Below are positions 9,201 to 33,357 of a DNA stretch of 64,000 nt, piece by piece; position 1 is the stretch's first letter, and every line of letters begins with the position of its first letter. The notes under the pieces are model-generated. The model had not been told where the DNA came from, did not search any database, and saw only the letters and a list, made by a program, of their open reading frames with translations. The stretch comes from Arenicola marina (Eukaryota; Annelida; Polychaeta; Arenicolidae): assembly GCA_964019135.1 (NCBI GenBank), contig OZ025261.1:31170029-31234028 (forward strand). Direction: 5' to 3'. Made by a program: the position numbers and the translations under genes.

Positions 9201-11200
9201 CTAAAGACTCAGGGGTTGTATCAATGGTCTTTCACAGTCCCTACAGACTCAGGGGTTGTATCAAGGGTCTCTCATAGTCCCTAAAGACTCAGGGGTTGTA
9301 TCAATGGTCTTTCACAGTCCCTACAGACTCAGGGGTTGTATCAAGGGTCTCTCATAGTCCCTAAAGACTCAGGGGTTGTATCAATGGTCTTTCACAGTCC
9401 CTGAAGACTCAGGGGTTGTATCAAGGGTCTCTCATAGTCCCTAAAGACTCAGGGGTTGTATCAATGGTCTTTCACAGTCCCTACAGACTCAGGGGTTGTA
9501 TCAATGGTCTTTCACAGTCCCTACAGACTCAGGGGTTGTATCAAGGGTCTCTCATAGTCCCTAAAGATTCAGTGGTTGTATCAAGGGTCTCTCATAGTCC
9601 CTAAAGATTCAGGGGTTGTATCAAGGGTCTCTCATAGTCCCTAAAGACTCAGGGGTTGTATCAATGGTCTTTCACAGTCCCTACAGACTCAGGGGTTGTA
9701 TCAAGGGTCTCTCATAGTCCCTAAAGACTCAGTGGTTGTATCAATGGTCTTTCACAGTCCCTACAGACTCAGGGGTTGTATCAAGAGTCTCTCATAGTCC
9801 CTAAAGACTCAGGGGTTGTATCAATGGTCTTTCACAGTCCCTACAGACTCAGGGGTTGTATCAAGGGTCTCTCATAGTCCCTAAAGACTCAGGGGTTGTA
9901 TCAATGGTCTTTCACAGTCCCTACAGACTCAGGGGTTGTATCAATGGTCTTTCACAGTCCCTACAGACTCAGGGGTTATATCAAGGGTCTTTCACAGTCC
10001 CTACAGACTCAGGGGTTGTATCAAGGGTCTCTCATAGTCCCTAAAGATTCAGTGGTTGTATCAAGGGTCTCTCATAGTCCCTAAAGACTCAGGGGTTGTA
10101 TCAAGGGTCTCTCATAGTCCCTAAAGACTCAGGGGTTGTATCAATGGTCTTTCACAGTCCCTACAGACTCAGGGGTTGTATCAAGGGTCTCTCATAGTCC
10201 CTAAAGACTCAGTGGTTGTATCAATGGTCTTTCACAGTCCCTACAGACTCAGGGGTTGTATCAAGGGTCTCTCATAGTCCCTAAAGATTCAGTGGTTGTA
10301 TCAAGGGTCTCTCATAGTCCCTAAAGACTCAGGGGTTGTATCAAGGGTCTCTCATAGTCCCTAAAGACTCAGGGGTTGTATCAAGGGTCTCTCATAGTCC
10401 CTAAAGATTCAGTGGTTGTATCAATGGTCTTTCACAGTCCCTACAGACTCAGGGGTTGTATCAAGGGTCTCTCATAGTCCCTAAAGACTCAGGGGTTGTA
10501 TCAAGGGTATCTCACAGTCCCTAAAGATTCGGGGGTTGTATCAATGGTCTGACCCAATGCCGAAAGACTCTGGGGTTGTATCAAGGGTCTGACCCAATGC
10601 CGAAAGACTCAGGGGTTGTATCAAGGGTCTCTCATAGTCCCTAAAGACTCAGGGGTTGTATCAAGGGTATCTCACAGTCCCTAAAGACTCAGGGGTTGTA
10701 TCAAGGGTATCTCACAGTCCCTAAAGACTCAGGGGTTGTATCAAGGGTCTCTCATAGTCCCTAAAGACTCAGGGTTTGTATCAAGGGTATCTCACAGTCC
10801 CTAAAGACTCAGGGGTTGTATCAAGGGTCTCTCATAGTCCCTAAAGACTCAGGGTTTGTATCAAGGGTATCTCACAGTCCCTAAAGACTCAGGGGTTGTA
10901 TCAATGGTCTGACCCAATGCCGAAAGACTCTGGGGTTGTATCAAGGGTCTGACCCAATGCCGAAAGACTCAGGGGTTGTATCAAGGGTCTCTCATAGTCC
11001 CTAAAGACTCAGGGGTTGTATCAAGGGTATCTCACAGTCCCTAAAGACTCAGGGGTTGTATCAAGGGTCTCTCATAGTCCCTAAAGACTCAGGGTTTGTA
11101 TCAAGGGTATCTCACAGTCCCTAAAGACTCAGGGGTTGTATCAATGGTCTGACCCTATGCCGAAAGACTCAGGGGTTGTATCAAGGGTCTCTCATAGTCC
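6220..11200. repeat. Second higher-order pattern (about 2.4-2.5 kb) with divergent gacccaatgc units
   Basis: Block 7,016-7,564 matches block 9,416 onward (offset 2,400 = 60 units) and the divergent units near 8,031 match those near 10,551 (offset 2,520 = 63 units). The units containing gacccaatgc and cgaaagactc occur only from about 8,030 rightwards (near 8,030, 8,310, 8,630, 10,550, 10,910, 11,150), so the right third of the array has its own local history. Confidence 0.75.
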
Positions 11201-11743
11201 CTAAAGATTCAGGGGTTGTATCAAGGGTCTTTCACAGTCCCTAAAGACTCAGGGGTTGTATCAAGGGTCTCTCATAGTCCCTAAAGACTCAGGGGTTGTA
11301 TCAAGGGTCTCTCATAGTCCCTAAAGACTCAGGGGTTGTATCAAGGGTCTCTCATAGTCCCTAAAGACTCAGGGGTTGCATCAACAAGGATCCTACAATC
11401 TCTGCATCAAGGCCCCCTTCACAATCCCGTGAGCAGTGCCATTTTATTCATTCATTAAAGTGAAAATGATCGTTGTTACCGTTTAGATAGCCTCATAAAT
11501 GTTTTATGCAACCCCTTTATACATGAAATATTCACAATAAGCTCACAGCACATGGAAAACTGCCGCCAGTAGACCTGAAATCACGACATGATGTAAACTC
11601 CGGTCCAGAAACCCCATTTCCCGAAACCCGCCTCCGGGCCCTGGTACGCCAAACAAGTGACGTCATGGGTCATGTGATCCCAAGGTGAATATGTTTGCCT
11701 TGGACATACAATGCATTGTTTATGATCGTGTCTGCTAATGAGA

Positions 11744-11758
11744 CGGCAGGGGGCGCTA
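11744..11758 (+). promoter_or_regulatory. CTCF-like motif, copy A
   Basis: The text CGGCAGGGGGCGCTA is close to the CTCF core as known from vertebrates (CAGGGGGCGCTA part). It sits in the unique block between two arrays and is conserved in copy B at 20,094-20,108. Binding is an inference; a single match can be chance. Confidence 0.35.
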
Positions 11759-11989
11759 CGGTATCACATTGAGACGGGGATATCGAACGCGTGATCGGTC
11801 CGTCTGTGGGGGTGGGGGCGGGGAGGGTCACTGGGGTGCGGGGGGGGGGGGCGGGGGGGCTCCGGGGTGGGGGAGGGGGGGGGGGCGGTGCTGGTGTGTG
11901 TATCTGGGCCCTTTGGGGATAATTCGCCCGATGCCATGGATAATCCTATGCATAATTCGAGGACCGAATAGGCTGATCCAAATTTGTGG

Positions 11990-12062
11990 TTATATAGCCT
12001 GGCTGGCAGGGAGAGAGAGACTCGTTCGTGGCACCCGGACACGGACCGGGGATCAACCCGCC
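11990..12062 (-). mobile_element. Possible tRNA-derived SINE remnant, copy A
   Basis: On the minus strand GGTTGATCCC (12,058-12,049) resembles a Pol III B box lacking one base, followed by a CCGGTCCGTGTCCGGGTG-type tract. No convincing A box is seen upstream, so this is at best a truncated element. The equivalent in copy B is at 20,407-20,398. Confidence 0.25.
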
Positions 12063-12317
12063 GTGTGTCTGTCCCAGCCACCCCCACATATCCCATCCCC
12101 CGCCCCCTCCCAGTGACCCTCACGACCCATCCTTCCCCACTCTCCCAGTGACCTTCACGACAACTCCGCCACCCCTCGCAGTCGCCCTCACGACCCTCCT
12201 CCCACCCCTTCCCGGTCCCCCCACGACGTCTCCCACCATCCAAGCTACTCTCAGCGATCGGATGCAGAATCAAATTGGGTGAAACTCCATATGACTTTTA
12301 TTTACTGCAACTATTGC

Positions 12318-14868
12318 ACGGGGCAAAATGTGCGAACAAAACTCTCCAATAGCAAGGGCGTCACGGGGGCAAAGCGAGAGATATCAACCCGGCTCTCCAA
12401 TAGCAAGGGTCTACGGGGCAAAGCGAGAGGTATGGACACGGCTCTCCAATAGCAAGGGTGTCACGGGGGCAAAGCGAGAGGTATGGACACGGCTCTCCAA
12501 TAGCAAGGGCGTCACGGGGGCCAAGCGAGAGGTATGAACACGGCTCTCCAATAGCAAGAGCGTCACGGGAGCAAAGCGAGAGGTATGAACGCGGCTCTCC
12601 AATAGCAAGGGTCTACGGGGGCAAAGCAAGAGGTATGAACACGGCCCTCCGATAGCAAGGGCGCACGGGGGCAAGGCGAGAGATATGAACACGGCTCTCC
12701 AATAGCAAGGGCGTCACGGGGGCAAAGCGAGAGGTATGAACACGGCTCTCCAATAGCAAGGGTGTCACGGGGGCAAAGCGAGAGGTATGAACACGGCTCT
12801 CCAATAGCAAGGGTGTCACGGGGGCAAAGCGAGAGGTATGAACACGGCTCTCCAATAGCAAGGGCTTCACGGCGGCAAAGCGAGAGGTATGAACACGGCT
12901 CTCCAATAGCAAAGGCTTCACGGGGCAAAGCGAGAGGTATGAACGAGGCTCTCCAATAGCAAGGGCGTCACGGGGGCAAAGCGAGAGGTATGAACACGGC
13001 CCTCCAATAGCAAGGGTGTCACGGGGACAAAGCGAGAGGTATGAACACGGCTCTCCAATGGCAAGGGTGTCACGGGGACAAAGCGAGAGGTATGAACATG
13101 GCCCTCCAATAGCAAGGGCGTCACGGGGGCAAAGCGAGAGGTATGAACATGGCTCTCCAATAGCAAGGGCGTCACGGGGGCAAAGCGAGAGGTATGAACA
13201 CGGCTCTCCAATAGCAAGGGTCTAAAGGGGCAAAGCGAGAGGTATGAACGCAGCTCCCCAATAGCAAGGGTCTACGGGGGCAAAGCGAGAGGTATGAACA
13301 CGGCTCGCCAATAGCAAGGGCTTCACAGGGCAAAGCGAGAGGCATGAACACGGCTCTCCAATAGCAAAGGCGTCACGGGGGCAAAGCCAGAGGTATGGAC
13401 ACGGCTCTCCAATAGCAAGGGCGTCACGGGGGCAAAGCGAGAGGTATGAACACGGCTCTCCAATAGCAAGGGCGTTACGGGGGCAAAGCGAGAGGTATGA
13501 ACACGGCCCTCCAATAGCAAGGGCGTCACGGGGGCAAAGCGAGAGGTATGAACATGGCTCACCAATAGCAAGGGCGTCACGGGGGCAAAGCGAGAGGTAT
13601 GAACACGGCCCTCCAATAGCAAGGGCGTCACGGGGGCAAAGCGAGAGGTATGAACATGCTCTCCAATAGCAAGGGCGTCACGGGGGCAAAGCGAGAGGTA
13701 TGAACACGGCTCTCCAATAGCAAGGGCGTCACGGGGGCAAAGCGAGAGGTATGAACACGGCTCTCCAATAGCAAGGGCTTCACGGGGGCAAAGCGAGAGG
13801 TATGAATACGGCTCTTCAATAGCAAGGGTCTACGGAGGCAAAGCGAGAGGTATGAACACGGCTCTACAATAGCAAGGGCTTCATGGGGACAAAGCGAGAG
13901 GTATGAACACGGCTCTCCAATAGCAAGGGCGTCACGGGGGCAAAGCGAGAGGTATGAACACGGCTCTTCAATAGCAAGGGTATACGGGGGCAAAGCGAGA
14001 GGTATGAACACGGTTCGCCAATAGCAAGGGCTTCACAGGGGCAAAGCGAGAGGTATGAACGCGGCTCTCCAACAGCAAGGGGTCTACGGGGGCAACGCGA
14101 GAGGTATGGTCACGGCTCGCCAATAGCAAGGGCTTCACAGGGGCAAAGCGAGAGGTATGAACACGGCTCTCCAATAGCAAGGGCGTCACGGGGGCAAAGC
14201 GAGAGGTATGAACACGGCTCTCTAATAGCAATGGCTTCATGGGGACAAAGCGAGAGGTATGAACACGGCTCTCCAATAGCAAGGGCTTCACGGGGGCAAA
14301 GCGAGAGGTATGAACACGACTCCCCAATAGCAAGGGCTTCACGGGGGCAAAGCGAGAGGTATGAACACGGCTCTCCAATAGCAAGGGCCGTCACGGGGGG
14401 CAAAGCGAGAGGTATGAACACGGCTCTTCAATAGCAAGGGTCTACGGGGGCAAAGCGAGAGGTATGAACACGGCTCTCCAATAGCAAGGGCTTCATGGGG
14501 ACAAAGCGAGAGGTATGAACACGGCTCTTCAATAGCAAGGGCGTCACGGGGCAAAGCGAGAGGTATGAACACAGCTCCCCAATAGCAAGGGCTTCATGGG
14601 GACAAAGCGAGAGGTATGAACACGGTTCTTCATAGCAAGGGTCTACGGGGGCAAAGCGAGAGGTATGAACACGGCTCGCCAATAGCAAGGGCGTCACGGG
14701 GGCAAAGCGAGAGGTATGAACACGGCTCTCCAATAGCAAGGGCGTCACGGGGGCAAAGCGAGAGGTATGACCACGGCTCTCTCCAATAGCAAGTGCTTCA
14801 CGGGGCAAAGCGAGAGGTCTGAACACGACTCCCCAATAGCCAAGAGCTTCACAGGGGCAAAGCGACAC
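12318..14868. repeat. 51-bp minisatellite, copy A, about 50 copies
   Basis: The unit is 51 bp with landmarks ctctccaatagcaagggc, gtcacgggggcaaagcgaga and ggtatgaacacg. Since 51 is a multiple of 3, long frames persist on both strands (the plus frame repeats GQSERYEHGSPIARASR). These are broken by single-base indels such as gtctacggggca, and are not treated as coding. Each unit holds a CCAAT pentamer. Copy B of the same array (20,670-21,945) has about half as many units. Confidence 0.95.
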
Positions 14869-15460
14869 GCTGCCCCGCTCGTGTCCGGACTTGCCCTAAG
14901 TGTATGTGTAGTACATTTACCGACAGACGGTGGCAAGGGAAACGGTAGGGAGGCAAGGGGTGGCGAGGAGCGGGGCAGGGGTGGGGGGGGGGCGGGGGGG
15001 GGGGGAGGGATCGGGAGAGGGGCATCTGGGCCCCGATCAGGGCTCGGGGCATCCTGACTGCCATCAGTATCGATTCCATATTGACGGCCGTCTCGTCTGG
15101 GATAAGGCGTCTTGGGTGACGAGTAGGGGTGGGTGTGCGTGTGTGTGTGTGTGGGGGGGGGGGGCTCGGGAGATTAAACCACGCACACGCAGGCGTTATG
15201 TACAGTACAGCGGGCGAGGGTTGGGTGGAGTCAGATATAATTGGTATGATATAATACGGTTTGGAGAAGACTGGCGAGGGGCTGGCGGTGGGGGGGGGTA
15301 GCAGTTTGAGAGGGATAGGTGGGTGAGGGATACGGGGAGTGATGTGGGAGTTTTGCGTGGGGTGGAAGCGGAGTGACGTCGGGGTGTGTACGGGAAGTGG
15401 CGTGGGGGAGGGGTAGGGGAGTGGTAGGGGAGTGGCTTGAGGGTGAGAGGTGAGGGAGTA
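14869..15460. other. G-rich and GT-rich spacer, copy A
   Basis: No gene supported. It holds poly-G tracts around 14,985-15,010 and 15,150-15,165, a (GT)n run near 15,135, then a G-rich stretch with repeated GGGGAG/GTGGGG that leads into the 25-bp array. Frames through it are glycine-rich low complexity. The counterpart in copy B is 21,946-22,545. Confidence 0.75.
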
Positions 15461-15660
15461 GTGTGGGGGAGGAATAGCAGGATCAGTGTGGGGGAGGGAT
15501 AGCAGGATCAGTGTGGGGGAGGGAGAGCAGGATCAGTGTGGGGGAGGGAGAGCAGGATCAGTGTGGGGGAGGGATAGCAGGATCAGTGTGGGGGAGGGAT
15601 AGCAGGATCAGTGTGGGGGAGGGATAGCAGGATCAGTGTGGGGGAGGGATAGCAGGATCA
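15461..15660. repeat. 25-bp G-rich minisatellite, copy A, 8 copies
   Basis: Units begin gtgtgggggaggg and end agcaggatca, at 15,461, 15,486, 15,511, 15,536, 15,561, 15,586, 15,611 and 15,636, each exactly 25 bp. Variants are aatag, gatag and gagag in the middle. The regularly spaced G4-5 and G3 runs could support G-quadruplexes on the plus strand. Copy B has 6 units. Confidence 0.97.
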
Positions 15661-15778
15661 GGGAGGGAAGGGGTAAGGGGTTACCGGATTCGCCTGGAGC
15701 GACATCGACTTGATTCCCGATGTCATTAGGAAAGGCGCGAAGAGGTTTGCACCTCACTGTTCACAATGCGTCGAGAGG
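15661..15778. other. Short spacer between 25-bp and 63-bp arrays, copy A
   Basis: Unique sequence with no gene of its own. It supplies the ATG and first codons of an open frame that runs into the 63-bp array; that frame looks accidental. Confidence 0.6.
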
Positions 15779-16915
15779 AACACCCCCGACCCACGCCCGA
15801 CCGTAACCCCAGAGCCACGTCAGACCGAAACCCCAGAGTCACGTCAGACCGTACCCCCAGAGCCACGTCAGACCGTAACCCCCAACCCACGCCAGACCGT
15901 AACCCCAGAGTCACGTCAGACCGTACCCCCACAGCACACAGCCCCGACCCACGCCAGACCGTAACCCCAGAGCCACGTCAGACCGTACCCCCCACAGCAC
16001 ACACCCCCGACCCACGCCAGACCGTAGCCCCAGAGCCACGTCAGACCGTACCCCCACAGCACACAGCCCCGACCCACGCCAGACCGTAACCCCAGAGCCA
16101 CGTCAGACCGTACCCCCCACAGCACACACCCCCGACCCACGCCAGACCGTAACCCCAGAGCCACGTCAGACCGTACCACCCACAGCACACAGCCCCGACC
16201 CACGCCAGACCGTAACCCCAGAGCCACGTCAGAACCGTACCCCCCACAGCACACACCCCCGACCCACGCAAGACCGTAACCCCAGAGCCACGTCAGACCG
16301 TACCCCCCACAGCACACACCCCCGACCCACGCAGGACCGTAACCCCAGAGCCACGTCAGACCGTACCCCCCCACAGCACACAGCCCCGACCCACGCCAGA
16401 CCGTAACCCCAGAGTCAGGTCAGACCGTACCACCCACAGCACACAGCCCCGACCCACGCCAGACCGTAAGCCCAGAGCCACGTCAGACCGTACCCCCCAC
16501 AGCACACACCCCCGACCCACGCCAGACCGTAACCTCAGAGCCACGTCAGACCGTACCCCCCACAGCACACACCCCCGACCCCGCCAGACAGTAACCCCAG
16601 AGCCACGTCAGACCGTACCCCCCACAGCACACACCCCCGACCCACGCCAGACCGTAACCCCAGAGCCACGTCAGACCGTACCCCCCACAGCACACACCCC
16701 CGACCCACGCCAGACCGTAACCCCAGAGCCACGTCAGACCGTACCCCCCACAGCACACACCCCCGACCCACGCCAGACCGTAACCCCAGAGCCACGTCAG
16801 ACCGTACCACCCACAGCACACAGCCCCGACCCACGCCAGACCGTAACCTCAGAGCCACGTCAGACCGTACCCACCACAGCACACACCCCCGACCCTCCGC
16901 AGACCGTACCCCCCC
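15779..16915. repeat. 63-bp minisatellite, copy A, about 18 copies
   Basis: The 63-bp unit has landmarks cccacgccagaccgtaaccc, cagagccacgtcagaccgta and cagcacacacccccga. The two halves are related (both contain cagaccgta), so the unit is itself a diverged dimer. The first units are shorter, irregular ancestors lacking the cagcacac block. The plus frame would give a proline/threonine-rich 21-residue repeat, but in this copy indels (for example near 16,231 and 16,578) break it, which argues against coding. Confidence 0.93.
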
Positions 16916-17408
16916 CCCCACATTCACAACACACACCCCGACCCACGCCACACCGTAGCCCCCCCACCCGCCCCACCCCCCCAACACACACCCCCGACCT
17001 CAACCTCCGAGACTCACACCCCACACTCCGGCTCACAATAGATGGGCTCCCGGAGGTCTTCCACAAAGAGAGACCCGCCCATGTCTTATGGTTAGAGACC
17101 AGGCCCATGTCTTGTGGTTATCTCCGCTTAGTGAAAGACTTACAATGGATCAAAGACTGGTGGATGAACCCTACCATATGACGCACGGACCATAAGTAAC
17201 CGCTCAGCACAGCGTATAATCTATGCAGATCCTGTCATCACGAACAACAGATCTTTTTCATTTGGAAATAAAAGTATATATACTTCCAGTTCGTGAGGGT
17301 CATCAATAACTAATTATGAAGCTGTATGACGCGCCTCTCCTCTTGTAACCAGTTCGTCCTGAGTGGGTCAAGGCGCCAGAAACTGAGCGAGCGCAGCATG
17401 CGTAGAAC
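16916..17408. other. Unique block left of the SINE, copy A
   Basis: It starts with degenerate C-rich repeat edge, then unique sequence containing a near-duplicate of gcccatgtcttatggtta (about 17,079 and 17,105), an AATAAA followed by a short palindromic agtatatatact near 17,268, and a CpG-containing tract to 17,408. No gene is seen. Confidence 0.65.
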
Positions 17409-17422
17409 ACGCCATCATATGG
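17409..17422. repeat. Left target-site duplication of the SINE, copy A
   Basis: The sequence acgccatcatatgg (14 bp) matches acgccatcacatgg at 17,673-17,686 with one mismatch and flanks the 250-bp element directly. Confidence 0.8.
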
Positions 17423-17672
17423 TTTGGTTTGGTTATTCAGGACGCTTTAACCAATTTTGGTCATAACGCGTCAATGGGAGAAGGAAGGGAGAGTGGAGCC
17501 ATGTCTCCGGGGGTAACCCCCTACTCTTTACGAAGAAAGACATGTGATCTTTATCCTGCGACCACACAGACATGGCCACAGCAGGGCTCGAACCACCGAT
17601 CCACGTGCCGTTAGGCTCTCAGGTGACCAGAGCACTCAATGCGAGCGCTCTAGCCCACTGAGCTATCGCGCC
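17423..17672 (-). mobile_element. tRNA-derived SINE, 250 bp, copy A
   Basis: On the minus strand the element starts at 17,672 with GGCGCGATAGCTCAGTGG, containing a good A box (TAGCTCAGTGG). About 75 bp on is a B box, GGTTCGAGCCC. Between them gagcgct/agtgctc can pair around a 7-base loop, like an anticodon arm. The spacing between A and B boxes is longer than in a normal tRNA, and a tRNA-unrelated body of about 150 bp follows, so this is a SINE rather than a tRNA gene. The 3' end is a short AACCAAACC-type tail. A 14-bp target-site duplication flanks it. Its open frames are accidental. Mobilisation would depend on a LINE not seen here. Confidence 0.85.
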
Positions 17673-19010
17673 ACGCCATCACATGGAGAACACGCCATCG
17701 AGACGACTGCCATCCCACGGAGAACACGCCATCGAGACGACTGCCATCACACGGAGAACACGCCATCGAGACGACTGCCATCCCACGGAAAACACGCCAT
17801 CGAGACGACTGCCATCACACGGAGAACACGCCGTCGAGACGACTGCCGTCACACGGAAAACACGCCATCGAGGCGACTGCCATCACAGGGAGAACACGCC
17901 ATCGAGACGACTGCCATCACACGGAAAACACGCCATCGGGACGACTGCCATCACAGGGAGCAGAACACGCCATCGAGACGACTGCCATCACACGGAGAAA
18001 CACGCCATCGAGACGATTGCCATCACAGGGAGAACATGCCATCGAGGCGACTGCCATCACACGGAGAAGAACACGCCATCGAGACGACTGCCATCACAGG
18101 GAGAACACGCCATCGAGGCGACTGCCATCACAGGGAGCAGAACACGCCATCGAGACGACTGCCATCACAGGGAGAACACGCCATCGAGACGACTGCCATC
18201 CCACGGAAAACACGCCATCGAGACGACTGCCATCACAGGGAGAACACGCCGTCGAGACGACTGCCGTCACACGGAAAACACGCCATCGAGGCGACTGCCA
18301 TCACAGGGAGAACACGCCATCGAGACGACTGCCATCACATGGAGAACACGCCGTCGAGACGACTGCCATCACACGGAAAACACGCCATCGAGACGACTGC
18401 CATCACAACGGAGAACACGCCGTCGAGACGACTGCCATCACAGGGAGAACATGCCATCGAGACGACTGCCATCACACGGAGAACACGCCGTCGAGACGAC
18501 TGCCATCACACGGAGAACACGCCATCGACACGACTGCCATCACACGGAGAACACGCCATCGAGACGACTGCCATCACACGAAAACACGCCATCGAGACGA
18601 CTGCCATCACAGGGAGAACACGCCATCGACACGACTGCCATCACACGGAGAACACGCCATCGAGACGACTGCCATCACAGGGAGAACACGCCATCGGAAC
18701 GACTGTCATCACAGGGAGAACACGCCATCGGAACGACTGTCATCACAGGGAGAACACGCCATCGAGACGACTGCCATCCCACGGAAAACACGCCATCGAG
18801 GGCGACTGCCATCACACGGAGAACACGCCATCGAGACGACTGCCATCACACGGAGAACACGCCACCGAGACGACTGCCATCTCGCAGAGAACACGCCCAT
18901 CGAGACGACTGTCATCACAGGGAGAACACGCCATCGAGACGACTGCCATCCACGGAAAACACGCATCGAGGCGACTGCCATCACAGGGAGAACACGCCAT
19001 CGAGACGACT
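17673..19010. repeat. 34-bp minisatellite, copy A, about 39 copies, cut by the gap
   Basis: Landmarks are gaacacgccatcgagacg and actgccatcacaggga; the unit is 34 bp, with a 37-bp form that adds gca (ggagcagaacacgcc). It begins inside the right-hand SINE target-site duplication. Because 34 x 3 = 102, all three plus frames cycle through the same stop-free peptide, giving overlapping long frames that are artefacts. The sequence is interrupted by Ns at 19,011. Confidence 0.95.
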
Positions 19011-19210
19011 NNNNNNNNNNNNNNNNNNNNNNNNNNNNNNNNNNNNNNNNNNNNNNNNNNNNNNNNNNNNNNNNNNNNNNNNNNNNNNNNNNNNNNNNNN
19101 NNNNNNNNNNNNNNNNNNNNNNNNNNNNNNNNNNNNNNNNNNNNNNNNNNNNNNNNNNNNNNNNNNNNNNNNNNNNNNNNNNNNNNNNNNNNNNNNNNNN
19201 NNNNNNNNNN
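19011..19210. other. Assembly gap of exactly 200 N
   Basis: A run of 200 N separates the 34-bp array (left) from 40-bp units (right). A round 200 is a common scaffolder default, so the true distance is unknown. Reading frames drawn through it are meaningless. Confidence 0.99.
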
Positions 19211-19731
19211 GTATCAAGGATCTCTGATAGTCCCTAAAGACTAAGGGTTGTATCAAGGGTCTCACACAGTCGTTAAAGCCTCAGGGGTTGTATCAAGGAT
19301 CTCTGATAGTCCCTAAAGACTCAGGGGTTGTATCAATGGTCTGACACAGTCTCTAACGACTCATGAGTTGTATCAATGGTCTGACACAGTCTCTAACGAC
19401 TCATGAGTTGTATCAATGGTCTTTCACAGTCTCTAACGACTCAGGAGTTGTATCAAGGGTCTCACACAGTTCTAAGATTCAGTGGTTGTATCAATGGTCT
19501 TTCACAGTCCCTAAAGACTCAGGGGTTGTATCAAGGGTCTCTCATAGTCCCTAAAGACTCAGGGGTTGTATCAAGGGTCTCTCATAGTCCCTAAAGACTC
19601 AGGGGTTGTATCAAGGGTCTCTCATAGTCCCTAAAGACTCAGGGGTTGTATCAAGGGTCTCTCACAGTCCCTAAAGACTCAGGGGTTGTATCAAGGGTCT
19701 CTCATAGTCCCTAAAGACTCAGGGGTTGCAT
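19211..19731. repeat. 40-bp minisatellite, second occurrence, about 13 copies
   Basis: These are the same units as at 1-11,383, starting at the contig edge. The leftmost units are irregular (ggatctctgatagtcc, cgttaaagcctcagg) and one is shortened (cacacagttctaagattc). The right end joins the same tcaacaaggatcc flank as at 11,383, so it is the equivalent right boundary of the array. Confidence 0.95.
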
Positions 19732-20669
19732 CAACAAGGATCCTACAATCTCTGCATCAAGGCCCCTTCACAAATCCCGTGAGCAGTGCCTTTTTATTCA
19801 TTCATTAAAGTGAAAATGATCGTTGTTACCGTTTAGATAGCCTCATAAATGTTTTATGCAACCCCTTTATACATGAAATATTCACAATAAGCTCACAGCA
19901 CATGGAAAACTGCCGCCAGTAGACCTGAAATCACGACATGATGTAAACTCCAGTCCAGAAACCCCATTTCCCGAAACCCGCCTCCGGGCCCTGGTACGCC
20001 AAACAAGTGACGTCATAGGTCATGTGATCCCAAGGTGAATATGTTTGCCTTGGACATACAATTCATTGTTTATGATCGTGTCTGCTAATGAGACGGCAGG
20101 GGGCGCTACGGTATCACATTGAGACGGGGATATCGAACGCGTGATCGGTCCGTCTGTGGGGGTGGGGGCGGGAGGGTCACTGGGGTGCGGGGGGGGGGGC
20201 TCCGGGGTGGGGGAGGGGGGGGGGCGGAGTGTGCGTGTGCTGGTGTGTGTATCTGGGCCCTTTGGGGATAATTCGCCCGATGCCATGGATAATCCTATGC
20301 ATAATTCGAGGACCGAATAGGCTGATCCAAATTTGTGGTTATATAGCCTGGCTGGCAGGGAGAGAGAGACTCGTTCGTGGCACCCGGACACGGACCGGGG
20401 ATCAACCCGCCGTGTGTCTGTCCCAGCCACCCCCACATATCCCATCCCCCGCCCCCTCCCAGTGACCCGCACGACCCATCCTTCCCCACTCTCCCAGTGA
20501 CCTTCACGACAACTCCGCCACCCCTCGCACTCGCCCTCACGACCCCTCCTCCCACCCCTTCCCGGTCCCCCCACGACGTCTCCCACCATCCAAGCTACTC
20601 TCAGCGATCGGATGCAGAATCAAATTGGGTGAAACTCCATATGACTTTTATTTACTGCAACTATTGCAC
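19732..20669. other. Unique block, copy B
   Basis: Near-identical to 11,384-12,317, including the CRE, G-runs and C-rich tract. Small differences include gtgccttttt for gtgccatttt, cgtcataggt for cgtcatgggt, and different poly-G lengths. No gene is supported. Confidence 0.85.
20094..20108 (+). promoter_or_regulatory. CTCF-like motif, copy B
   Basis: Identical to the 15-base motif at 11,744-11,758 of copy A and in the same context. Confidence 0.35.
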
Positions 20670-21945
20670 GGGGCAAAAGGTGCGAACAAAACTCTCCAAT
20701 AGCAAGGCCGTTCGGGGGCAAAGCGAGAGGTATCAACCCGGCTCTCCAATAGCAAGGGTCTACGGGGGCAAAGCGAGAGGTATGGACACGGCTCTCCAAT
20801 AGCAAGGGTGTCACGGGGGCAAAGCGAGAGGTATGGACACGGCTCTCCAATAGCAAGGGCGTCACGGGGGCCAAGCGAGAGGTATGAACACGGCTCTCCA
20901 ATAGCAAGAGCGTCACGGGGGCAAAGCGAGAGGTATGAACGCGGCTCTCCAATAGCAAGGGTCTACGGGGGCAAAGCGAGAGGTATGAACACGGCCCTCC
21001 AATAGCAAGGGCGTCACGGGGGCAAGGCGAGAGATATGAACACGCTCTCCAATAGCAAGGGCGTCACGGGGGCAAAGCGAAAGGTATGAACACGGCTCTC
21101 CAATAGCAAGGGTGTCACGGGGGCAAAGCGAGAGGTATGAACACGGCTCCTCCAATAGCAAGGGTGTCACGGGGGCAAAGCGAGAGGTATGAACACGGCT
21201 CTCCAATAGCAAGGGCTTCACGCGGGCAAAGCGAGAGGTATGAACACGGCTCTCCAATAGCAAGGGCTTCACGGGGCAAAGCGAGAGGTATGAACGAGGC
21301 TCTCCAATAGCAAGGGCGTCACGGGGGCAAAGCGAGATTTATGAACACGGCCCTCCAATAGCAAGGGTGTCACGGGGACAAAGCGAGAGGTATGAACACG
21401 GCTCTCCAATGGCAAGGGTGTCACGGGGACAAAGCGAGAGGTATGAACATGGCCCTCCAATAGCAAGGGCGTCACGGGGGCAAAGCGAGAGGTATGAACA
21501 TGGCTCTCCAATAGCAAGGGCGTCACGGGGCAAAGCGAGAGGTATGAACACGGCTCTCCAATAGCAAGGGTCTAAAGGGCAAAGCGAGAGGTATGAACGC
21601 AGCTCCCCAATAGCAAGGGTCTACGGGGCAAAGCGAGAGGTATGAACACGGCTCGCCAATAGCAAGGGCGTCACGGGGGCAAAGCGAGAGGTATGAACAC
21701 AGCTATCCAATAGCAAGGGCTTCATGGGGACAAAGCGAGAGGTATGAACACGGTTCTTCAATAGCAAGGGTCTACGGGGGCAAAGCGAGAGGTATGAACA
21801 CGGCTCGCCAATAGCAAGGGCGTCACGGGGGCAAAGCGAGAGGTATGACCACGGCTCTCCAATAGCAAGTGCTTCACGGGGGCAAAGCGAGAGGTCTGAA
21901 CACGACTCCCCAATAGCCAAGAGCTTCACAGGGGCAAAGCGACAC
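20670..21945. repeat. 51-bp minisatellite, copy B, about 25 copies
   Basis: Same 51-bp unit and same flanks as 12,318-14,868, but half the length. First and last units correspond to those of copy A, so the difference is internal gain or loss of units. Single-base indels (for example cacgctctcc near 21,043) break the frames. Confidence 0.95.
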
Positions 21946-22212
21946 GCTGCCCGCTCGTGTCCGGACTTGCCCTAAGTGTATGTGTAGTACACTTACCGAC
22001 AGACGTGGCAAGGGAAACGGTAGGGAGGCAAGGGGTGGCGAGGAGCGGGGCAGGGGTCGGGGGGGGGGGCGGGGGGGGGGGGGGTCGGGAGAGGGGCATC
22101 TGGGCCCCGATCAGGGCTCGGGGCATCCTGACTGCCATCAGTATCGATTCCATATTGACGGCCGTCTCGTCTGGGATAAGGCGTCTTGGGTGACGAGTAG
22201 GGGTGGGTGTGC

Positions 22213-22243
<31 letters not shown>

Positions 22244-22545
22244 GGGCTCGGGTGATTAAACCACGCACACGCAGGCGTTATGTACAGTACAGCGGGCGAG
22301 GGTTGGGTGGAGTCAGATATAATTGGTATGATATAATACGGTTTGGAGAAGACTGGCGAGGGGCTGGCGGGGGGGGGGGGGTAGCAGTTTGAGGAGGGAT
22401 AGGTGGGTGAGGGATACGGGGAGTGATGTGGGAGTTTTGCGTGGGGTGGAAGGCGGAGTGACGTCGGGGTGGGTACGGGAAGTGGCGTGGGGGAGGGGTA
22501 GGGGAGTGGTAGGGGAGTGGCTTGAGGGTGAGAGGTGAGGGAGTA
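21946..22545. other. G-rich and GT-rich spacer, copy B
   Basis: Equivalent of 14,869-15,460 with different poly-G and GT tract lengths. No gene supported. Confidence 0.75.
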
Positions 22546-22695
22546 GTGTGGGGGAGGAATAGCAGGATCAGTGTGGGGGAGGGATAGCAGGATCAGTGTG
22601 GGGGAGGGAGAGCAGGATCAGTGTGGGGGAGGGATAGCAGGATCAGTGTGGGGGAGGGATAGCAGGATCAGTGTGGGGGAGGGATAGCAGGATCA
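22546..22695. repeat. 25-bp G-rich minisatellite, copy B, 6 copies
   Basis: Units start at 22,546, 22,571, 22,596, 22,621, 22,646 and 22,671. Two fewer than in copy A, with the same flanks. Confidence 0.97.
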
Positions 22696-22812
22696 GGGAG
22701 GGAAGGGGTAAGGGGTTACCGGATTCGCCTGGAGCGACATCGACTTGATTCCCGATGTCATTAGGAAAGGCGCGAAGAGGTTTGCACCTCACTGTTCACA
22801 ATGCGTCGAGAG

Positions 22813-23760
22813 GAACACCCCCGACCCACGCCCGACCGTAACCCCAGAGCCACGTCAGACCGAAACCCCAGAGTCACGTCAGACCGTACCCCCAGAGCCA
22901 CGTCAGACCGTAACCCCCAACCCACGCCAGACCGTAACCCCAGAGTCACGTCAGACCGTACCCCCCACAGCACACAGCCCCGACCCACGCCAGACCGTAA
23001 CCCCAGAGCCACGTCAGACCGTACCCCCCACAGCACACAGCCCCGACCCACGCCAGACCGTAGCCCCAGAGCCACGTCAGACCGTACCCCCCACAGCACA
23101 CAGCCCCGACCCACGCCAGACCGTAACCCCAGAGTCAGGTCAGACCGTACCACCCACAGCACACAGCCCCGACCCACGCCAGACCGTAACCCCAGAGCCA
23201 CGTCAGACCGTACCCCCCACAGCACACACCCCCGACCCACGCCAGACCGTAACCTCAGAGCCACGTCAGACCGTACCCCCCACAGCACACACCCCGGACC
23301 CCCGCCAGACAGTAACCCCAGAGCCACGTCAGACCGTACCCCCCACAGCACACACCCCCGACCCACGCCAGACCGTAACCCCAGAGCCACGTCAGACCGT
23401 ACCCCCCACAGCACACACCCCCGACCCACGCCAGACCGTAACCCCAGAGCCACGTCAGACCGTACCACCCACAGCACACAGCCCCGACCCACGCCAGAAC
23501 GTAACCCCAGAGCCACGTCAGACCGTACCCCCCACAGCACACACCACCGACCCACGCCAGACCGTAACCTCAGAGCCACGTCAGACCGTACCCCCCACAG
23601 CACACACCCCCGACCCCCGCCAGACAGTAACCCCAGAGCCACGTCAGACCGTACCCCCCACAGCACACACCCCCGACCCACGCCAGACCGTAACCCCAGA
23701 GCCACGTCAGACCGTACCCCCCACAGCACACACCCCCGACCCTCCGCAGACCGTACCCCC
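22813..23760. repeat. 63-bp minisatellite, copy B, about 15 copies
   Basis: Same unit as 15,779-16,915. Here the plus frame from 22,745 stays open for 426 codons with a 21-residue repeat including PEPRQTVPPTAH, and two other frames are long too. The same frame is broken in copy A, the composition is low-complexity, and there is no signal peptide, domain or splice context, so I treat it as repeat and not a gene. Confidence 0.93.
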
Positions 23761-24252
23761 CCCCCATTCACAACACACACCCCGACCCACGCCACACCGT
23801 AGCCCCCCCACCCGCCCCACCCCCCCAACACACACCCCCGACCTCAACCTCCGAGACTCACACCCCACACTCCGGCTCACAATAGATGGGCTCCCGGAGG
23901 TCTTCCACAAAGAGAGACCCGCCCATGTCTTATGGTTAGAGACCAGGCCCATGTCTTGTGGTTATCTCCGCTTAGTGACAGACTTACAATGGATCAAAGA
24001 CTGGTGGATGAACCCTACCATATGACGCACGGACCATAAGTAACCGCTCAGCACAGCGTATAATCTATGCAGATCCTGTCATCACGAACAACAGATCTTT
24101 TTCATTTGGAAATAAAAGTATATATACTTCCAGTTCGTGAGGGTCATCAATAACTAATTATGAAGCTGTATGACGCGCCTCTCCTCTTGTAACCAGTTCG
24201 TCCTGAGTGGGTCAAGGCGCCAGAAACTGAGCGAGCGCAGCATGCGTAGAAC
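23761..24252. other. Unique block left of the SINE, copy B
   Basis: Equivalent of 16,916-17,408, with the same AATAAA and palindromic agtatatatact. Only a few substitutions (gtgacagac for gtgaaagac). No gene seen. Confidence 0.65.
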
Positions 24253-24266
24253 ACGCCATCATATGG

Positions 24267-24516
24267 TTTGGTTTGGTTATTCAGGACGCTTTAACCACTT
24301 TTGGTCATAACGCGTCAATGGGAGAAGGAAGGGAGAGTGGAGCCATGTCTCCGGGGGTAACCCCCTACTCTTTACGAAGAAAGACATGTGATCTTTATCC
24401 TGCGACCACACAGACATGGCCACAGCAGGGCTCGAACCACCGATCCACGTGCCGTTAGGCTCTCAGGTGACCAGAGCACTCAATGCGAGCGCTCTAGCCC
24501 ACTGAGCTATCGCGCC
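24267..24516 (-). mobile_element. tRNA-derived SINE, 250 bp, copy B
   Basis: Same element, same insertion site and same target-site duplications (24,253-24,266 and 24,517-24,530) as at 17,423-17,672, with only scattered differences (accactttt for accaatttt). A and B boxes are intact on the minus strand. Sharing the same insertion means the A/B split came after the SINE jumped. Confidence 0.85.
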
Positions 24517-27500
24517 ACGCCATCACATGGAGAACACGCCATCGAGACGACTGCCATCCCACGGAAAACACGCCATCGAGACGACTGCCATCACAGGGAG
24601 AACATGCCATCGAGGCGACTGTCATCACAGGGAGAACATGCCATCGAGGCGACTGTCATCACACGGAGAAGAACACGCCATCGAGACGACTGCCATCACA
24701 GGGAGAACACGCCATCGAGACGACTGCCATCACAGGGAGAACATGCCATCGAGGCGACTGTCATCACAGGGGGAACATGCCATCGAGGCGACTGTCATCA
24801 CACGGAGAAGAACACGCCATCGAGGCGACTGCCATCACAGGGAGAACACGCCATCGAGGCGACTGCCATCACAGGGAGAACATGCCATCGAGACGACTGC
24901 CATCACACGGAGAACACGCCATCGAGACGACTGCCATCACACGGAGAAGAACACGCCATCGAGACGACTGCCATCACAGGGAGAACACGCCATCGAGACG
25001 ACTGCCATCACAGGGAGAACACGCCATCGAGGCGACTGCCATCACAGGGAGAACATGTCATCGAGGCGACTGCCATCACACAGAGAACACGCCATCGAGG
25101 CGACTGCCATCACAGGGAGAACATGCCATCGAGACGACTGCCATCACAGGGAGAACACGCCATCGAGACGACTGCCATCACAGGTAGAACACGCCGTCGA
25201 GACGACTGCCATCACACAGAGAAGAACACGCCATCGAGACGACTGCCATCACAGGGAGAACACGCCATCGAGACGACTGCCATCACAGGTAGAACACGCC
25301 GTCGAGACGACTGCCATCACAGGGAGCAGAACACGCCATCGAGACGACTGCCATCACAGGGAGAACACGCCATCGAGACGACTGCCATCCCACGGAAAAC
25401 ACGCCATCGAGACGACTGCCATCACACGGAGAACACGCCGTCGAGACGACTGCCGTCACACGGAAAACACGCCATCGAGGCGACTGCCATCACAGGGAGA
25501 ACACGCCATCGAGACGACTGCCATCACAGGGAGAACACGCCATCGAGGCGACTGCCATCTCACAGAGAACACGCCATCGAGACGCCTGCTATCACAGGGA
25601 GAAGACGCCATCGAGACGACTGCCATCACAGGGAGAACACGCCATCGAGGCGACTGCCATCTCACAGAGAACACGCCGTCGAGACGACTGCTATCATAGG
25701 GAGAAGACGCCATCGAGACGACTGCCATCACAGGGAGAACACGCCATCGAGACGACTGCCATCACACGGAGAACACGCCGTCGAGACGACTGCCGTCACA
25801 CGGAAAACACGCCATCGAGGCGACTGCCATCACAGGGAGAAGACGCCATCGAGACGACTGCCATCACAGGGAGAACACGCCATCGAGACGACTGCCATCA
25901 CACGGAGAACACGCCGTCGAGACGACTGCCGTCACACGGAAAACACGCCATCGAGGCGACTGCCATCACAGGGAGAACACGCCATCGAGACGACTGCCAT
26001 CACAGGGAGAACATGTCATCGAGGCGACTGCCATCACACAGAGAACACGCCGTCGAGACGACTGCCGTCACACGGAAAACACGCCATCGAGGCGACTGCC
26101 ATCACAGGGAGAACACGCCATCGAGACGACTGCCATCACAGGGAGAACACGCCATCGAGACGACTGCCATCACAGGTAGAACACGCCATCGAGACGACTG
26201 CCATCACATGGAGAACACGCCGTCGAGACGACTGCCGTCACACGGAAAACACGCCATCGAGGCGACTGCCATCACAGGGAGAACACGCCATCGAGACGAC
26301 TGCCATCACAGGGAGAACACGCCATCGAGACGACTGCCATCACAGGTAGAACACGCCATCGAGACGACTGCCATCACATGGAGAACACGCCGTCGAGACG
26401 ACTGCCATCACACGGAGAACACGCCATCGAGACGACTGCCATCACCCAAAAAAACGCCATCGAGACGACTGCCATCACACGGAGAACACGCCATCGACAC
26501 GACTGCCATCACACGGAGAACACGCCATCGAGACGACTGCCATCACAGGGAGAACACGCCATCGAGACGACTGCCATCACAGGGAGAACACGCCATCGAG
26601 ACGACTGCCATCACAGGTAGAACACGCCATCGAGACGACTGCCATCACATGGAGAACACGCCGTCGAGACGACTGCCATCACACGGAGAACACGCCATCG
26701 AGACGACTGCCATCACCCAAAAAAACGCCGTCGAGACGACTGCCATCACACGGAGAACACGCCATCGACACGACTGCCATCACACGGAGAACACGCCATC
26801 GAGACGACTGCCATCACACGGAGAACACGCCATCGAGACGACTGCCATCACACGGAGAACACGCCGTCGAGACGACTGCCGTCACACGGAAAACACGCCA
26901 TCGAGGCGACTGCCATCACAGGGAGAACACGCCATCGAGACGACTGCCGTCACACGGAAAACACGCCATCGAGGCGACTGCCATCACAGGGAGAACACGC
27001 CATCGAGACGACTGCCATCACAGGGAGAACACGCCATCGAGACGACTGCCATCACAGGTAGAACACGCCATCGAGACGACTGCCATCACATGGAGAACAC
27101 GCCGTCGAGACGACTGCCATCACACGGAAAACACGCCATCGAGACGACTGCCATCACACGGAGAACACGCCATCGAGACGACTGCCATCACACGAAAAAC
27201 ACGCCATCGAGACGACTGCCATCACAGGGAGAAGACGCCATCGAGACGACTGCCATCACAGGGAGAACACGCCATCGAGACGACTGCCATCACAGGGAGC
27301 AGAACACGTCGTCGAGACGACTGCCATCACACGGAGAACACGCCATCGGAACGACTGCCATCACACGGAGAACACGCCGTCGAGACGACTGCCGTCACAC
27401 GGAAAACACGCCATCGAGGCGACTGCCATCACAGGGAGAACACGCCATCGAGACGACTGCCATCACAGGGAGAACATGTCATCGAGGCGACTGCCATCAC

Positions 27501-30500
27501 AGGGAGAACACGCCGTCGAGACGACTGCCATCACAGGGAGAACACGCCATCGAGGCGACTGCCATCACAGGGAGAACATGTCATCGAGGCGACTGCCATC
27601 ACAGGGAGAACACGCCATCGAGACGACTGCCATCACAGGGAGAACACGCCATCGAGACGACTGCCATCACAGGTAGAACACGCCATCGAGACGACTGCCA
27701 TCACATGGAGAACACGCCGTCGAGACGACTGCCATCACACGGAAAACACGCCATCGAGACGACTGCCATCACACGGAGAACATGCCATCGAGACGACTGC
27801 CATCACCCAAAAAAACGCCGTCGAGACGACTGCCATCACACGGAGAACACGCCATCGACACGACTGCCATCACACGGAGAACACGCCATCGAGACGACTG
27901 CCATCACACGGAGAACACGCCGTCGAGACGACTGCCGTCACACGGAAAACACGCCATCGAGGCGACTGCCATCACAGGGAGAACACGCCATCGAGACGAC
28001 TGCCGTCACACGGAAAACACGCCATCGAGACGACTGCCATCCCACGGAAAACACGCCATCGAGACGACTGCCATCACACGAAAAACACGCCATCGAGACG
28101 ACTGCCATCACAGGGAGAAGACGCCATCGAGACGACTGCCATCACAGGTAGAACACGCCATCGAGACGACTGCCATCACATGGAGAACACGCCGTCGAGA
28201 CGACTGCCATCACAGGTAGAACACGCCATCGAGACGACTGCCATCACAGGTAGAACACGCCATCGAGACGACTGCCATCACATGGAGAACACGCCGTCGA
28301 GACGACTGCCATCACACGGAAAACACGCCATCGAGACGACTGCCATCACACGGAGAACACGCCGTCGAGGCGACTGCCATCACAGGGAGAACATGTCATC
28401 GAGGCGACTGCCATCACACAGAGAAGAACACGCCATCGAGACGACTGCCATCACAGGGAGAACACGCCATCGAGACGACTGCCATCACAGGGAGAACACG
28501 CCATCGAGACGACTGCCATCACCCAAAAAAACGCCGTCGAGACGACTGCCATCACACGAAAAACACGCCATCGAGACGACTGCCATCACAGGGAGAAGAC
28601 GCCATCGAGACGACTGCCATCACAGGGAGAACACGCCATCGAGACGACTGCCATCACAGGGAGCAGAACACGTCGTCGAGACGACTGCCATCACAGGGAG
28701 AACACGCCATCGAGACGACTGCCATCACATGGAGCAGAACACGTCGTCGAGACGACTGCCATCACAGGGAGAACACGCCATCGAGACGACTGCCATCACA
28801 GGGAGCAGAACACGCCATCGAGACGACTGCCATCACAGGGAGAAGACGCCATCGAGACGACTGCCATCACAGGGAGAACACGCCATCGAGACGACTGCCA
28901 TCACAGGGAGCAGAACACGTCGTCGAGACGACTGCCATCACACGGAGAACACGCCATCGGAACGACTGTCATCACAGGGAGAACACGCCATCGAGGCGAC
29001 TGCCATCACAGGGAAAACACGCCATCGAGACGACTGCCATCACACGGAGAACACGCCGTCGAGGCGACTGCCATCACAGGGAGAACATGTCATCGAGGCG
29101 ACTGCCATCACACAGAGAAGAACACGCCATCGAGACGACTGCCATCACACGAAAAACACGCCATCGAGACGACTGCCATCACAGGGAGAAGACGCCATCG
29201 AGACGACTGCCATCACAGGGAGAACACGCCATCGAGACGACTGCCATCACAGGGAAAACACGCCATCGAGACGACTGCCATCACAGGTAGAACACGCCAC
29301 CGAGACGACTGCCATCCCACGGAGAACACGCCATCGAGACGACTGCCATCACAGGGAGAACATGCCATCGAGACGACTGCCATCACAGGGAGCAGAACAC
29401 GTCGTCGAGACGACTGCCATCACACGGAGAACACGCCATCGGAACGACTGTCATCACAGGGAGAACACGCCATCGAGGCGACTGCCATCACAGGGAAAAC
29501 ACGCCATCGAGACGACTGCCATCACACGGAGAACACGCCATCGAGGCGACTGCCATCACAGGGAGAACATGTCATCGAGGCGACTGCCATCACACAGAGA
29601 AGAACACGCCATCGAGACGACTGCCATCACAGGGAAAACACGCCATCGAGACGACTGCCATCACAGGTAGAACACGCCGTCGAGACGACTGCCATCACAG
29701 GTAGAACACGCCGTCGAGACGACTGCCATCACAGGGAGCAGAACACGCCATCGAGACGACTGCCATCACACGGAGAACACGCCGTCGAGACGACTGCCAT
29801 CACAGGGAGAACACGCCATCGAGACGACTGCCATCACCCAAAAAAACGCCGTCGAGACGACTGCCATCACACGGAGAACACGCCATCGAGACGACTGCCA
29901 TCACACGGAGAACACGCCATCGACACGACTGCCATCACACGGAGAACACGCCATCGAGACGACTGCCATCACACGAAAAACACGCCATCGAGACGACTGC
30001 CATCACAGGGAGAACACGCCATCGAGACGACTGCCATCACAGGGAGAACACGCCATCGAGACGACTGCCATCACAGGGAGAACACGCCACCGAGACGACT
30101 GCCATCACAGGGAGAACCCGCCACCGAGACGACTGCCATCTCACAGAGAACACGCCATCGAGACGACTGTCATCACAGGGAGAACACGCCATCGAGACGA
30201 CTGCTATCACAGGGAGAAGACGCCATCGAGACGACTGCCATCTCACAGAGAACACGCCATCGAGACGACTGCCATCACAGGGAGAACACGCCATCGAGAC
30301 GACTGCCATCACAGGGAGAACACGCCACCGAGACGACTGCCATCACAGGGAGAACCCGCCACCGAGACGACTGCCATCTCACAGAGAACACGCCATCGAG
30401 ACGACTGCCATCACAGGGAGAACACGCCATCGAGACGACTGCCATCACAGGAAGAACACGCCATCGAGACGACTGCCATCACAGGGAGAACCCGCCACCG

Positions 30501-33357
30501 AGACGACTGCCATCACATGGAGCAGAACACGCCACCGAGACGACTGCCATCACATGGAGCAGAACACGCCATCGAGACGACTGTCATCACATGGATCAGA
30601 ACACGCCATGGAGACGACTGCCATCACAGGGAGAACATGCCATCGAGACGACTGCCATCACAGGGAGCAGAACACGCCATCGAGACGACTGCCATCACAG
30701 GGAGAACACGCCATCGAGACGACTGCCATCACACGGAGAACACGCCATCGAGACGACTGCCATCACACGGAGAACCCGCCACCGAGACGACTGCCATCTC
30801 ACAGAGAACACGCCATCGAGACGACTGCCATCACAGGGAGAACACGCCATCGAGACGACTGCCATCACACGGAGAACACGCCATCGAGACGACTGCCATC
30901 ACAGGGAGAACCCGCCACCGAGACGACTGCCATCACATGGAGCAGAACACGCCACCGAGACGACTGCCATCTCACAGAGAACACGCCATCGAGACGACTG
31001 CCATCACAGGGAGAACACGCCATCGAGACGACTGCCATCACACGGAGAACACGCCATCGAGACGACTGCCATCACAGGGAGAACCCGCCACCGAGACGAC
31101 TGCCATCACATGGAGCAGAACACGCCATCGAGACGACTGCCATCACAGGGAGAACACGCCAACGAGACGACTGCCATCACAGGAAAAACACGCCATCGAG
31201 ACGACTGCCATCACAGGAAAAACACGCCATCGAGACGACTGCCATCACATGGAGCAAAAGACGCCATCGAGACGACTGCCATCACATGGAGCAGAACACG
31301 CCATCGAGACGACTGCCATCACATGGAGCAGAACACGCCATCGAGACGACTGTCATCACAGGGAGAACACGCCATCGAGACGACTGCCATCACATGGAGC
31401 AGAACACGTCACCGAGACGACTGCCATCACAGGGAGAACACGCCGTCGAGACGACTGCCATCACAGGGAGAACATGCCATCGAGACGACTGCCATCACAG
31501 AGAGAACACGCCATCGAGACGACTGCCATCACAGGGAGAACACGCCGTCGAGACGACTGCCATCACAGGGAGAACACGCCATCGAGACGACTGCCATCAC
31601 ACGGAGAACCCGCCACCGAGACGACTGCCATCTCACAGAGAACACGCCATCGAGACGACTGTCATCACAGGGAGAACACGCCATCGAGACGACTGCTATC
31701 ACAGGGAGAAGACGCCAACGAGACGACTGCCATCACAGGAAAAACACGCCATCGAGACGACTGCCATCACAGGAAAAACACGCCATCGAGACGACTGCCA
31801 TCACATGGAGCAAAAGACGCCATCGAGACGACTGCCATCACAGGGAGCAGAACACGCCATCGAGACGACTGCCATCACACGGAGAACACGCCATCGAGAC
31901 GACTGCTATCACACGGAGAACACGCCATCGAGACGACTGCCATCACAGGGAGAGCACGCCACCGAGACGACTGCCATCACAGGGAGAACACGCCATCGAG
32001 ACGACTGCCATCACATGGAGAACCCGCCATCGAGACGACTGCCATCACAGGGAGCAGAACACGCCATCGAGACGACTGCCTTCACAGGGAGCAGAACACG
32101 CCATCGAGACGACTGCCATCACAGGGAGCAGAACACGCCATCGAGACGACTGCCTTCACAGGGAGCAGAACACGCCATCGAGACGACTGCCTTCACAGGG
32201 AGCAGAACACGCCATCGAGACGACTGCCTTCACAGGGAGCAGAACACGCCATCGAGACGACTGCCATCACATGGAGAACCCGCCATCGAGACGACTGCCA
32301 TCACAGGGAGCAGAACACGCCATCGAGACGACTGCCATCACAGGGAGCAGAACACGCCATCGAGACGACTGCCATCTCACAGAGAACACGCCATCGAGAC
32401 GACTGCCATCACACGGAGAACACGCCATCGAGACGACTGCCATCACAGGGAGAGCACGCCACCGAGACGACTGCCATCACAGGGAGAACACGCCATCGAG
32501 ACGACTGCTATCACACGGAGAACACGCCATCGAGACGACTGCCATCACAGGGAGAACATGCCACCGAGACGACTGCCATCACAGAGAGAACACGCCATCG
32601 AGACGACTGCCATCACAGGGAGAACACGCCGTCGAGACGACTGCCATCACAGGGAGAACACGCCATCGAGACGACTGCCATCACAGGGAGCAGAACACGC
32701 CATCGAGACGACTGCCATCACACGGAGAACACGCCATCGAGACGACTGCCTTCACACGGAGAACACGCCATCGAGACGACTGCCATCTCACAGAGAACAC
32801 GCCATCGAGACGACTGCCATCACACGGAGAACACGCCATCGAGACGACTGCCATCACACGGAGAACACGCCATCGAGACGACTGCCATCACAGGGTGAAC
32901 ACGCCACCGAGACGACTGCCATCTCACAGAGAACACGCCATCGAGACGACTGCCATCACAGAGAGAACACGCCATCGAGACGACTGCTATCACACGGAGA
33001 ACACGCCATCGAGACGACTGCCATCACAGGGGGAACCCGCCACCGAGACGACTGCCATCTCACAGAGAACACGCCATAGAGACGACTGCCATCACAGGGA
33101 GAACACGCCATCGAGACGACTGCCATCACACAGAGAACACGCCATCGAGACGATTGCCATCACAGAGAGAACACGCCATCGAGACGACTGCTATCACACG
33201 GAGAACACGCCATCGAGACGACTGCCATCACAGGGGGAACCCGCCACCGAGACGACTGCCATCTCACAGAGAACACGCCATAGAGACGACTGCCATCACA
33301 GGGAGAACACGCCATCGAGACGACTGCCATCACAGGGAGAACACGCCATCGAGACGA
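24517..33357. repeat. 34-bp minisatellite, copy B, about 260 copies
   Basis: Same unit as at 17,673, with 34-bp and 37-bp (extra gca) forms. Rare markers such as cacccaaaaaaacgcc recur near 26,443, 26,714, 27,804, 28,520 and 29,835, showing block duplication. The right part (about 30,100-33,357) is enriched in cccgccaccgag and gcagaacacgcc variants, and 32,080-32,260 is a homogenised run with the rare gccttcacag form. Frames of up to 945 codons on the plus strand are by-products: three frames carry the same peptide offset by one unit. Confidence 0.96.

Follow-up and report, generated by a model that had tools for sequence, protein, structure and literature searches.

Probable retained haplotype overlap across an assembly gap in a minisatellite-dense region of the Arenicola marina genome

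False duplications in genome assemblies have been described as heterotype, including a 'flanking contigs' type (Rhie et al. 2021, PMC8081667; Ko et al. 2022, PMC9516828), and as homotype (PMC8081667). According to Ko et al., false duplications are mostly separated by gaps and the true ones examined were not (PMC9516828); tandem and haplotypic duplications are reported to be hard to distinguish at contig ends (PMC10462168), and purge_dups takes such overlaps out on the basis of depth and similarity (PMC7203741). Here, we describe a composite block present on both sides of an assembly gap (copy A to the left, copy B to the right) in a 64,000-nucleotide stretch of the annelid Arenicola marina (the window; C14:31,170,029-31,234,028, from an assembly of 867,369,267 bp in 762 contigs). 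On comparison of the assembled copies, A and B are probably a retained haplotype overlap, a heterotype false duplication at a locus that should hold one copy.

The share of tandem arrays is 66.6% in the window (many unrelated motifs, the larger ones 18 to 78 bp) and 43.8% in the surrounding 264 kb. Three unique blocks (U1, U2 and U3) and five arrays form the repeated unit, and on each side of the gap (200 N at 19,011 to 19,210) the parts run in the order 40-bp array, U1, 51-bp array, U2, 25-bp array, 63-bp array, U3 with a terminal short interspersed nuclear element (SINE), and 34-bp array. An earlier note on this stretch had claimed that the block right of the gap repeats the left one in order, and 11,385 to 19,010 does recur from 19,211 across the 200 N. 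The parts are as follows (window positions; negative positions lie to its left; strand given where one applies).

1 to 11,384 (beginning at -2,466, outside the window): 40-bp array on the left of copy A; 346 units, clean, one anchor recurring at exactly 40 in all 345 spacings
11,385 to 12,341: U1 unique block, copy A; 99.3% identical to 19,735 to 20,691 outside gaps
12,342 to 14,865: 51-bp array, copy A; 49.7 units, 8 singleton 1-bp indels
14,866 to 15,459: U2 unique block, copy A; contains G runs
15,460 to 15,661: 25-bp array, copy A; 8.1 units
15,662 to 16,913: 63-bp array, copy A; ragged 24-bp edge, core 15,878 to 16,913 by Tandem Repeats Finder (TRF), 16.5 units
16,914 to 17,674: U3 unique block, copy A; 99.7% identical to copy B
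17,424 to 17,671, minus strand: SINE-like repeat in U3, copy A; tRNA-like head by eye, adjoining the 34-bp array
17,675 to 19,010: 34-bp array, copy A; truncated at the contig end, 7 singleton 1-bp indels
19,011 to 19,210: assembly gap; 200 N
19,211 to 19,734: 40-bp array, copy B; truncated at the contig start, 13 units, of which two deviate in length (39 and 38 bp)
19,735 to 20,691: U1 unique block, copy B
20,692 to 21,942: 51-bp array, copy B; 24.7 units, 3 singleton 1-bp indels
21,943 to 22,544: U2 unique block, copy B
22,545 to 22,696: 25-bp array, copy B; 6.1 units
22,697 to 23,760: 63-bp array, copy B; ragged edge, TRF core 22,913 to 23,760, 13.5 units, 0 singleton 1-bp indels
23,761 to 24,518: U3 unique block, copy B; SINE as in copy A at 24,268 to 24,516
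24,519 to 33,358: 34-bp array, copy B; 257 units, 2 singleton 1-bp indels in 8,840 bp

The likeness of A and B is far beyond chance. Outside gaps, identity was 99.3% in U1, 99.3% in U2 and 99.7% in U3 (13 mismatches in 2,293 aligned bases; 14 under other gap costs), and the SINE stands at the same site in both copies, both as the earlier note had it. One-base indels between the unique blocks were about as many as substitutions. Transitions accounted for 4 of 14 substitutions there versus 139 of 231 between SINE copies (P = 0.025, the latter set being ten comparisons among five SINE copies that are not independent of one another), a low share that looks error-like. Among the matches listed for the 867-Mb assembly, U1 and U2 have just two full-length copies each. 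At no more than two mismatches, all 250 matches to the 34-bp motif lay inside the window and all 161 matches to the 40-bp motif inside the surrounding 264 kb.

The match between the copies is a dovetail, ending at the last base of contig 1 (left of the gap) and starting at the first base of contig 2. On the left it covers the final 8,153 bp up to the gap edge, and on the right it runs from base 1 as far as about 6,650, giving an overlap of 6.6 to 8.2 kb at a contig boundary, with no unduplicated sequence at either gap edge. Contig 1 was earlier said to end in the 34-bp array and contig 2 to start in the 40-bp array; this is what the dovetail, which reaches the gap on both sides, bears out. Right beside the gap, A and B match inside arrays and out of register.

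Array lengths set the copies apart. TRF copy numbers (A/B) were 49.7/24.7 for the 51-bp array, 8.1/6.1 for the 25-bp array, 16.5/13.5 for the 63-bp array, 39/257 for the 34-bp array and, within the window, 284.6/13.2 for the 40-bp array. The first two pairs agree with prior counts of about 50 versus 25 and of 8 versus 6; for the 63-bp array (previously about 18 versus 15) the difference of 3 held, at lower absolute counts. In register, A and B were 98.7% (51-bp), 100% (25-bp) and 98.1% (63-bp) identical, and the gaps comprised whole units, A exceeding B by 1,273 bp, 50 bp and 188 bp, or about 25, 2 and 3 units, respectively. Whole-unit differences in as many as three arrays are not what sequencing error would produce by itself; they point to two haplotypes rather than one. 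The two long arrays behave differently: register between A and B is kept only for the ~100 to 150 bp adjoining the unique block, past which they are alike only as much as separate stretches of one array. With large gaps allowed, the 34-bp arrays of A and B aligned with a score of 1,032 (961 to 1,075 in controls from ten separate stretches of the B array), and the 40-bp stub of B scored 388 against the A array, under all ten controls taken within that array (396 to 479). Letter-exact counterparts in B's 34-bp array were found for 27 of the 38 units of A's.

Two of these parts have features of their own. Within the 40-bp array at 1 to 11,384, long stretches repeat exactly (883 bp at an offset of 2,720, 748 bp at 2,520 and 710 bp at 2,800), a higher-order pattern without length change over 345 spacings. 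The SINE-like repeat of U3 has further copies in the 264 kb at 83 to 94% identity; its tRNA-like head, recognized by eye, abuts the first 34-bp unit, and the 34-bp array may have begun at the SINE end. Scans of the window with Rfam and ARAGORN gave no match.

Singleton 1-bp indels, defined as 1-bp indels occurring once per array, were counted in 25 arrays, with the 25-bp arrays of A and B and the 40-bp array of B left out of the table owing to size; in these counts short arrays make singletons likelier and bases are treated as independent. Copy A held 8 in the 51-bp, 3 in the 63-bp and 7 in the 34-bp array (3.2, 2.9 and 5.2 per kb), and copy B 3 in the 51-bp and 0 in the 63-bp array. The 34-bp arrays differed most plainly, with 7 in 1,336 bp in the A tail versus 2 in 8,840 bp in B (Fisher P = 2e-5), and 6 of the 7 singletons of the A tail lay in homopolymer runs. 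The A-side 40-bp array had none in 13,851 bp. In the B head 2 of 13 units were off length, as was none of the 345 spacings measured in A (P = 0.001). Across 48 arrays, with a cut of 8 kb that was picked after the arrays were seen, this gap had 24 singletons in 10,937 array bp at <8 kb versus 11 in 29,311 beyond (P = 4e-7). All five gaps in the 264 kb are of 200 N, with no further gap in the 20 kb beyond it, and the other four together had 12 singletons in 11,789 array bp at <8 kb versus 7 in 32,325 beyond (P = 9e-4); contig ends in this region generally show the rise. The duplicated stretch therefore largely coincides with poorly supported contig ends. These look like poorly corrected reads, given that the singletons of the 34-bp A tail fall mostly in homopolymers and that, in the unique blocks, 1-bp indels are on a par with substitutions and transitions are few. 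Homopolymer length is given as the chief HiFi error mode in PMC7545148, and we infer that the assembly was built from HiFi reads. Part of the difference between A and B is likely sequencing error in the tails rather than polymorphism. Poly-G runs were considered as a candidate cause of the contig break: runs of at least 9 G or C (180 in the 264 kb) rose only modestly in density close to gaps (9.1 and 8.3 per 10 kb at <8 kb versus 6.3 and 5.9 farther).

These properties resemble those given for heterotype false duplications of the 'flanking contigs' type in the pertinent passages of PMC8081667 and PMC9516828: the same part order across a gap, dovetail contig ends and haplotype-like length differences. 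The copies lie on one scaffold with a gap between them, and the end of one contig overlaps the start of the next. The A/B pair differs from that type in that its difference lies mainly in minisatellite array length, and the likeness is drawn here from the assembly sequence. What carries the retained haplotype overlap is a set of direct observations, namely the dovetail overlap, the array-length differences and the error-like indels concentrated in the tails. The true locus would be a single block (40-bp array, U1, 51-bp, U2, 25-bp, 63-bp, U3/SINE, 34-bp array) at which two parental haplotypes would differ in array lengths. Contig 1 would have entered the block on one haplotype and stopped within the 34-bp array, and contig 2 would have started within the 40-bp array on the other. 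Read support in both tails may have been thin, and tails overlapping by 6.6 to 8.2 kb may have been left unmerged and unpurged because the arrays differ by whole units and the thin tails carry read errors; scaffolding would then have placed the contigs adjacent with a 200-N spacer.

A true head-to-tail tandem duplication is an unlikely alternative, and it has a precedent nearby. It would span at least 6.6 to 8 kb, from part of the 40-bp to part of the 34-bp array, with a 34-bp/40-bp junction hidden in the gap and the arrays resized since. About 90 kb to the left, a unique block of 675 to 680 bp with a 46-bp array is duplicated in tandem with no gap (copies -71,791 to -70,128 and -70,113 to -61,863), within one contig flanked by gaps at -78,290 and -33,176. 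When the 147,374 bases lying outside arrays were compared with themselves, this was the sole other close long match, and it shows that real composite duplications do occur in this region. As in A and B, the unique block is near identical (2 substitutions and 2 indels in 681 columns; 98.7% counting gaps) and the arrays are unlike in length and order, the first short (989 bp) and the second 7.7 times longer (7,571 bp), diverging shortly past the first unit. Unlike A and B, it has no gap, both of its substitutions are transitions, and its arrays hold no singleton 1-bp indels in 8,560 bp versus 21 in the 6,995 bp that make up the five long arrays of A and B (P = 5e-8). No sequenced junction between A and B was found, the N gap occupying the junction site, and the assembly holds no 34-bp/40-bp junction and no extra copy of either motif elsewhere. 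A true duplication also demands that assembly failed in 34-bp and 40-bp repeats that were assembled nearly cleanly over 8.8 and 13.9 kb alongside; with such stretches only a few kb away, repeats alone need not halt the assembler. The false duplication is favored over it because two contig tails overlap by 6.6 to 8.2 kb, much of which bears the error mark of contig ends. The earlier preference for a retained haplotype over a true tandem is thus upheld by the dovetail, the whole-unit array differences and the tail indels. The further expectation, that the contig ends look as they should if two alleles were kept, is fair, but the A/B difference is not purely allelic, since part of it looks like tail sequencing error.

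Error in the reads brings in a homotype false duplication, in which the contigs would overlap on a single haplotype by about a read length and stay unmerged owing to read errors. The published cases occur at contig boundaries and have a length of about one read (PMC8081667). A and B resemble them in their place at contig ends, in an overlap (6.6 to 8.2 kb) that may be of the order of a long read and in read-type errors, to which the homopolymer-type indels and few transitions point. They part from them in the arrays: one haplotype should have one array length, yet three arrays differ by whole units (about 25, 2 and 3 in the 51-, 25- and 63-bp arrays), which makes this explanation improbable. 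A dispersed or misplaced duplicate, with contig 2 coming from elsewhere and wrongly scaffolded here, can draw on the general point that at a gap no read joins the contigs. It is very improbable, with U1 and U2 lacking any other full-length match among the matches listed and both motifs occurring nowhere else.

Several results weigh against the retained haplotype overlap. The other four gaps in the 264 kb lack a dovetail overlap, beyond a single match of 173 bp (73%) at one of them; contigs meeting at gaps in this region thus do not overlap as a rule. Of unplaced contig C700, the one contig sampled, the first 2 kb had no second full-length copy, which does not show retained haplotigs to be common. 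Nor is the indel gradient even, since the bins at >16 kb (0.49 and 0.42 per kb) exceed those at 8 to 16 kb (0.18 and 0.13), and the 63-bp array of B, free of singletons, breaks a smooth gradient. A real tandem duplication cut by a gap would likewise have thin tails and could yield the same dovetail, and the region does contain the gap-free tandem duplication of like style described above.

Elsewhere in the assembly, C762 (15,942 bp) is a mitochondrial contig in which nad4L and nad4 are readable with the invertebrate mitochondrial code; its flanking tRNAs and a gene order that we take to be annelid-like were recognized by eye, and ARAGORN run on this contig with the bacterial code reported no tRNA. 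Unplaced contigs C21, C30 and C500 have round sizes (16,000, 133,200 and 81,000 bp), which suggests manual cuts during curation.

The A/B pair is probably an ordinary assembly artifact and not a real duplication. If so, about 7 to 8 kb of the chromosome is counted twice, and array copy numbers of the assembly within about 8 kb of gaps are not to be trusted. As a by-product, singleton 1-bp indels in arrays offer a read-free flag for poorly supported contig ends. Should the duplication be real, which we consider unlikely, this minisatellite-dense region would hold two composite block duplications. Unique blocks with their flanking arrays would then be repeatedly duplicated head to tail in this genome, a prospect we hold doubtful. 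The long arrays would, no less doubtfully, have been almost fully rewritten afterward, their order lost ~100 to 150 bp from the edge, beside unique flanks at 99.3 to 99.7% identity and short arrays still in register. If the copies are instead alleles, the loss of order in the long arrays would mean very fast turnover.

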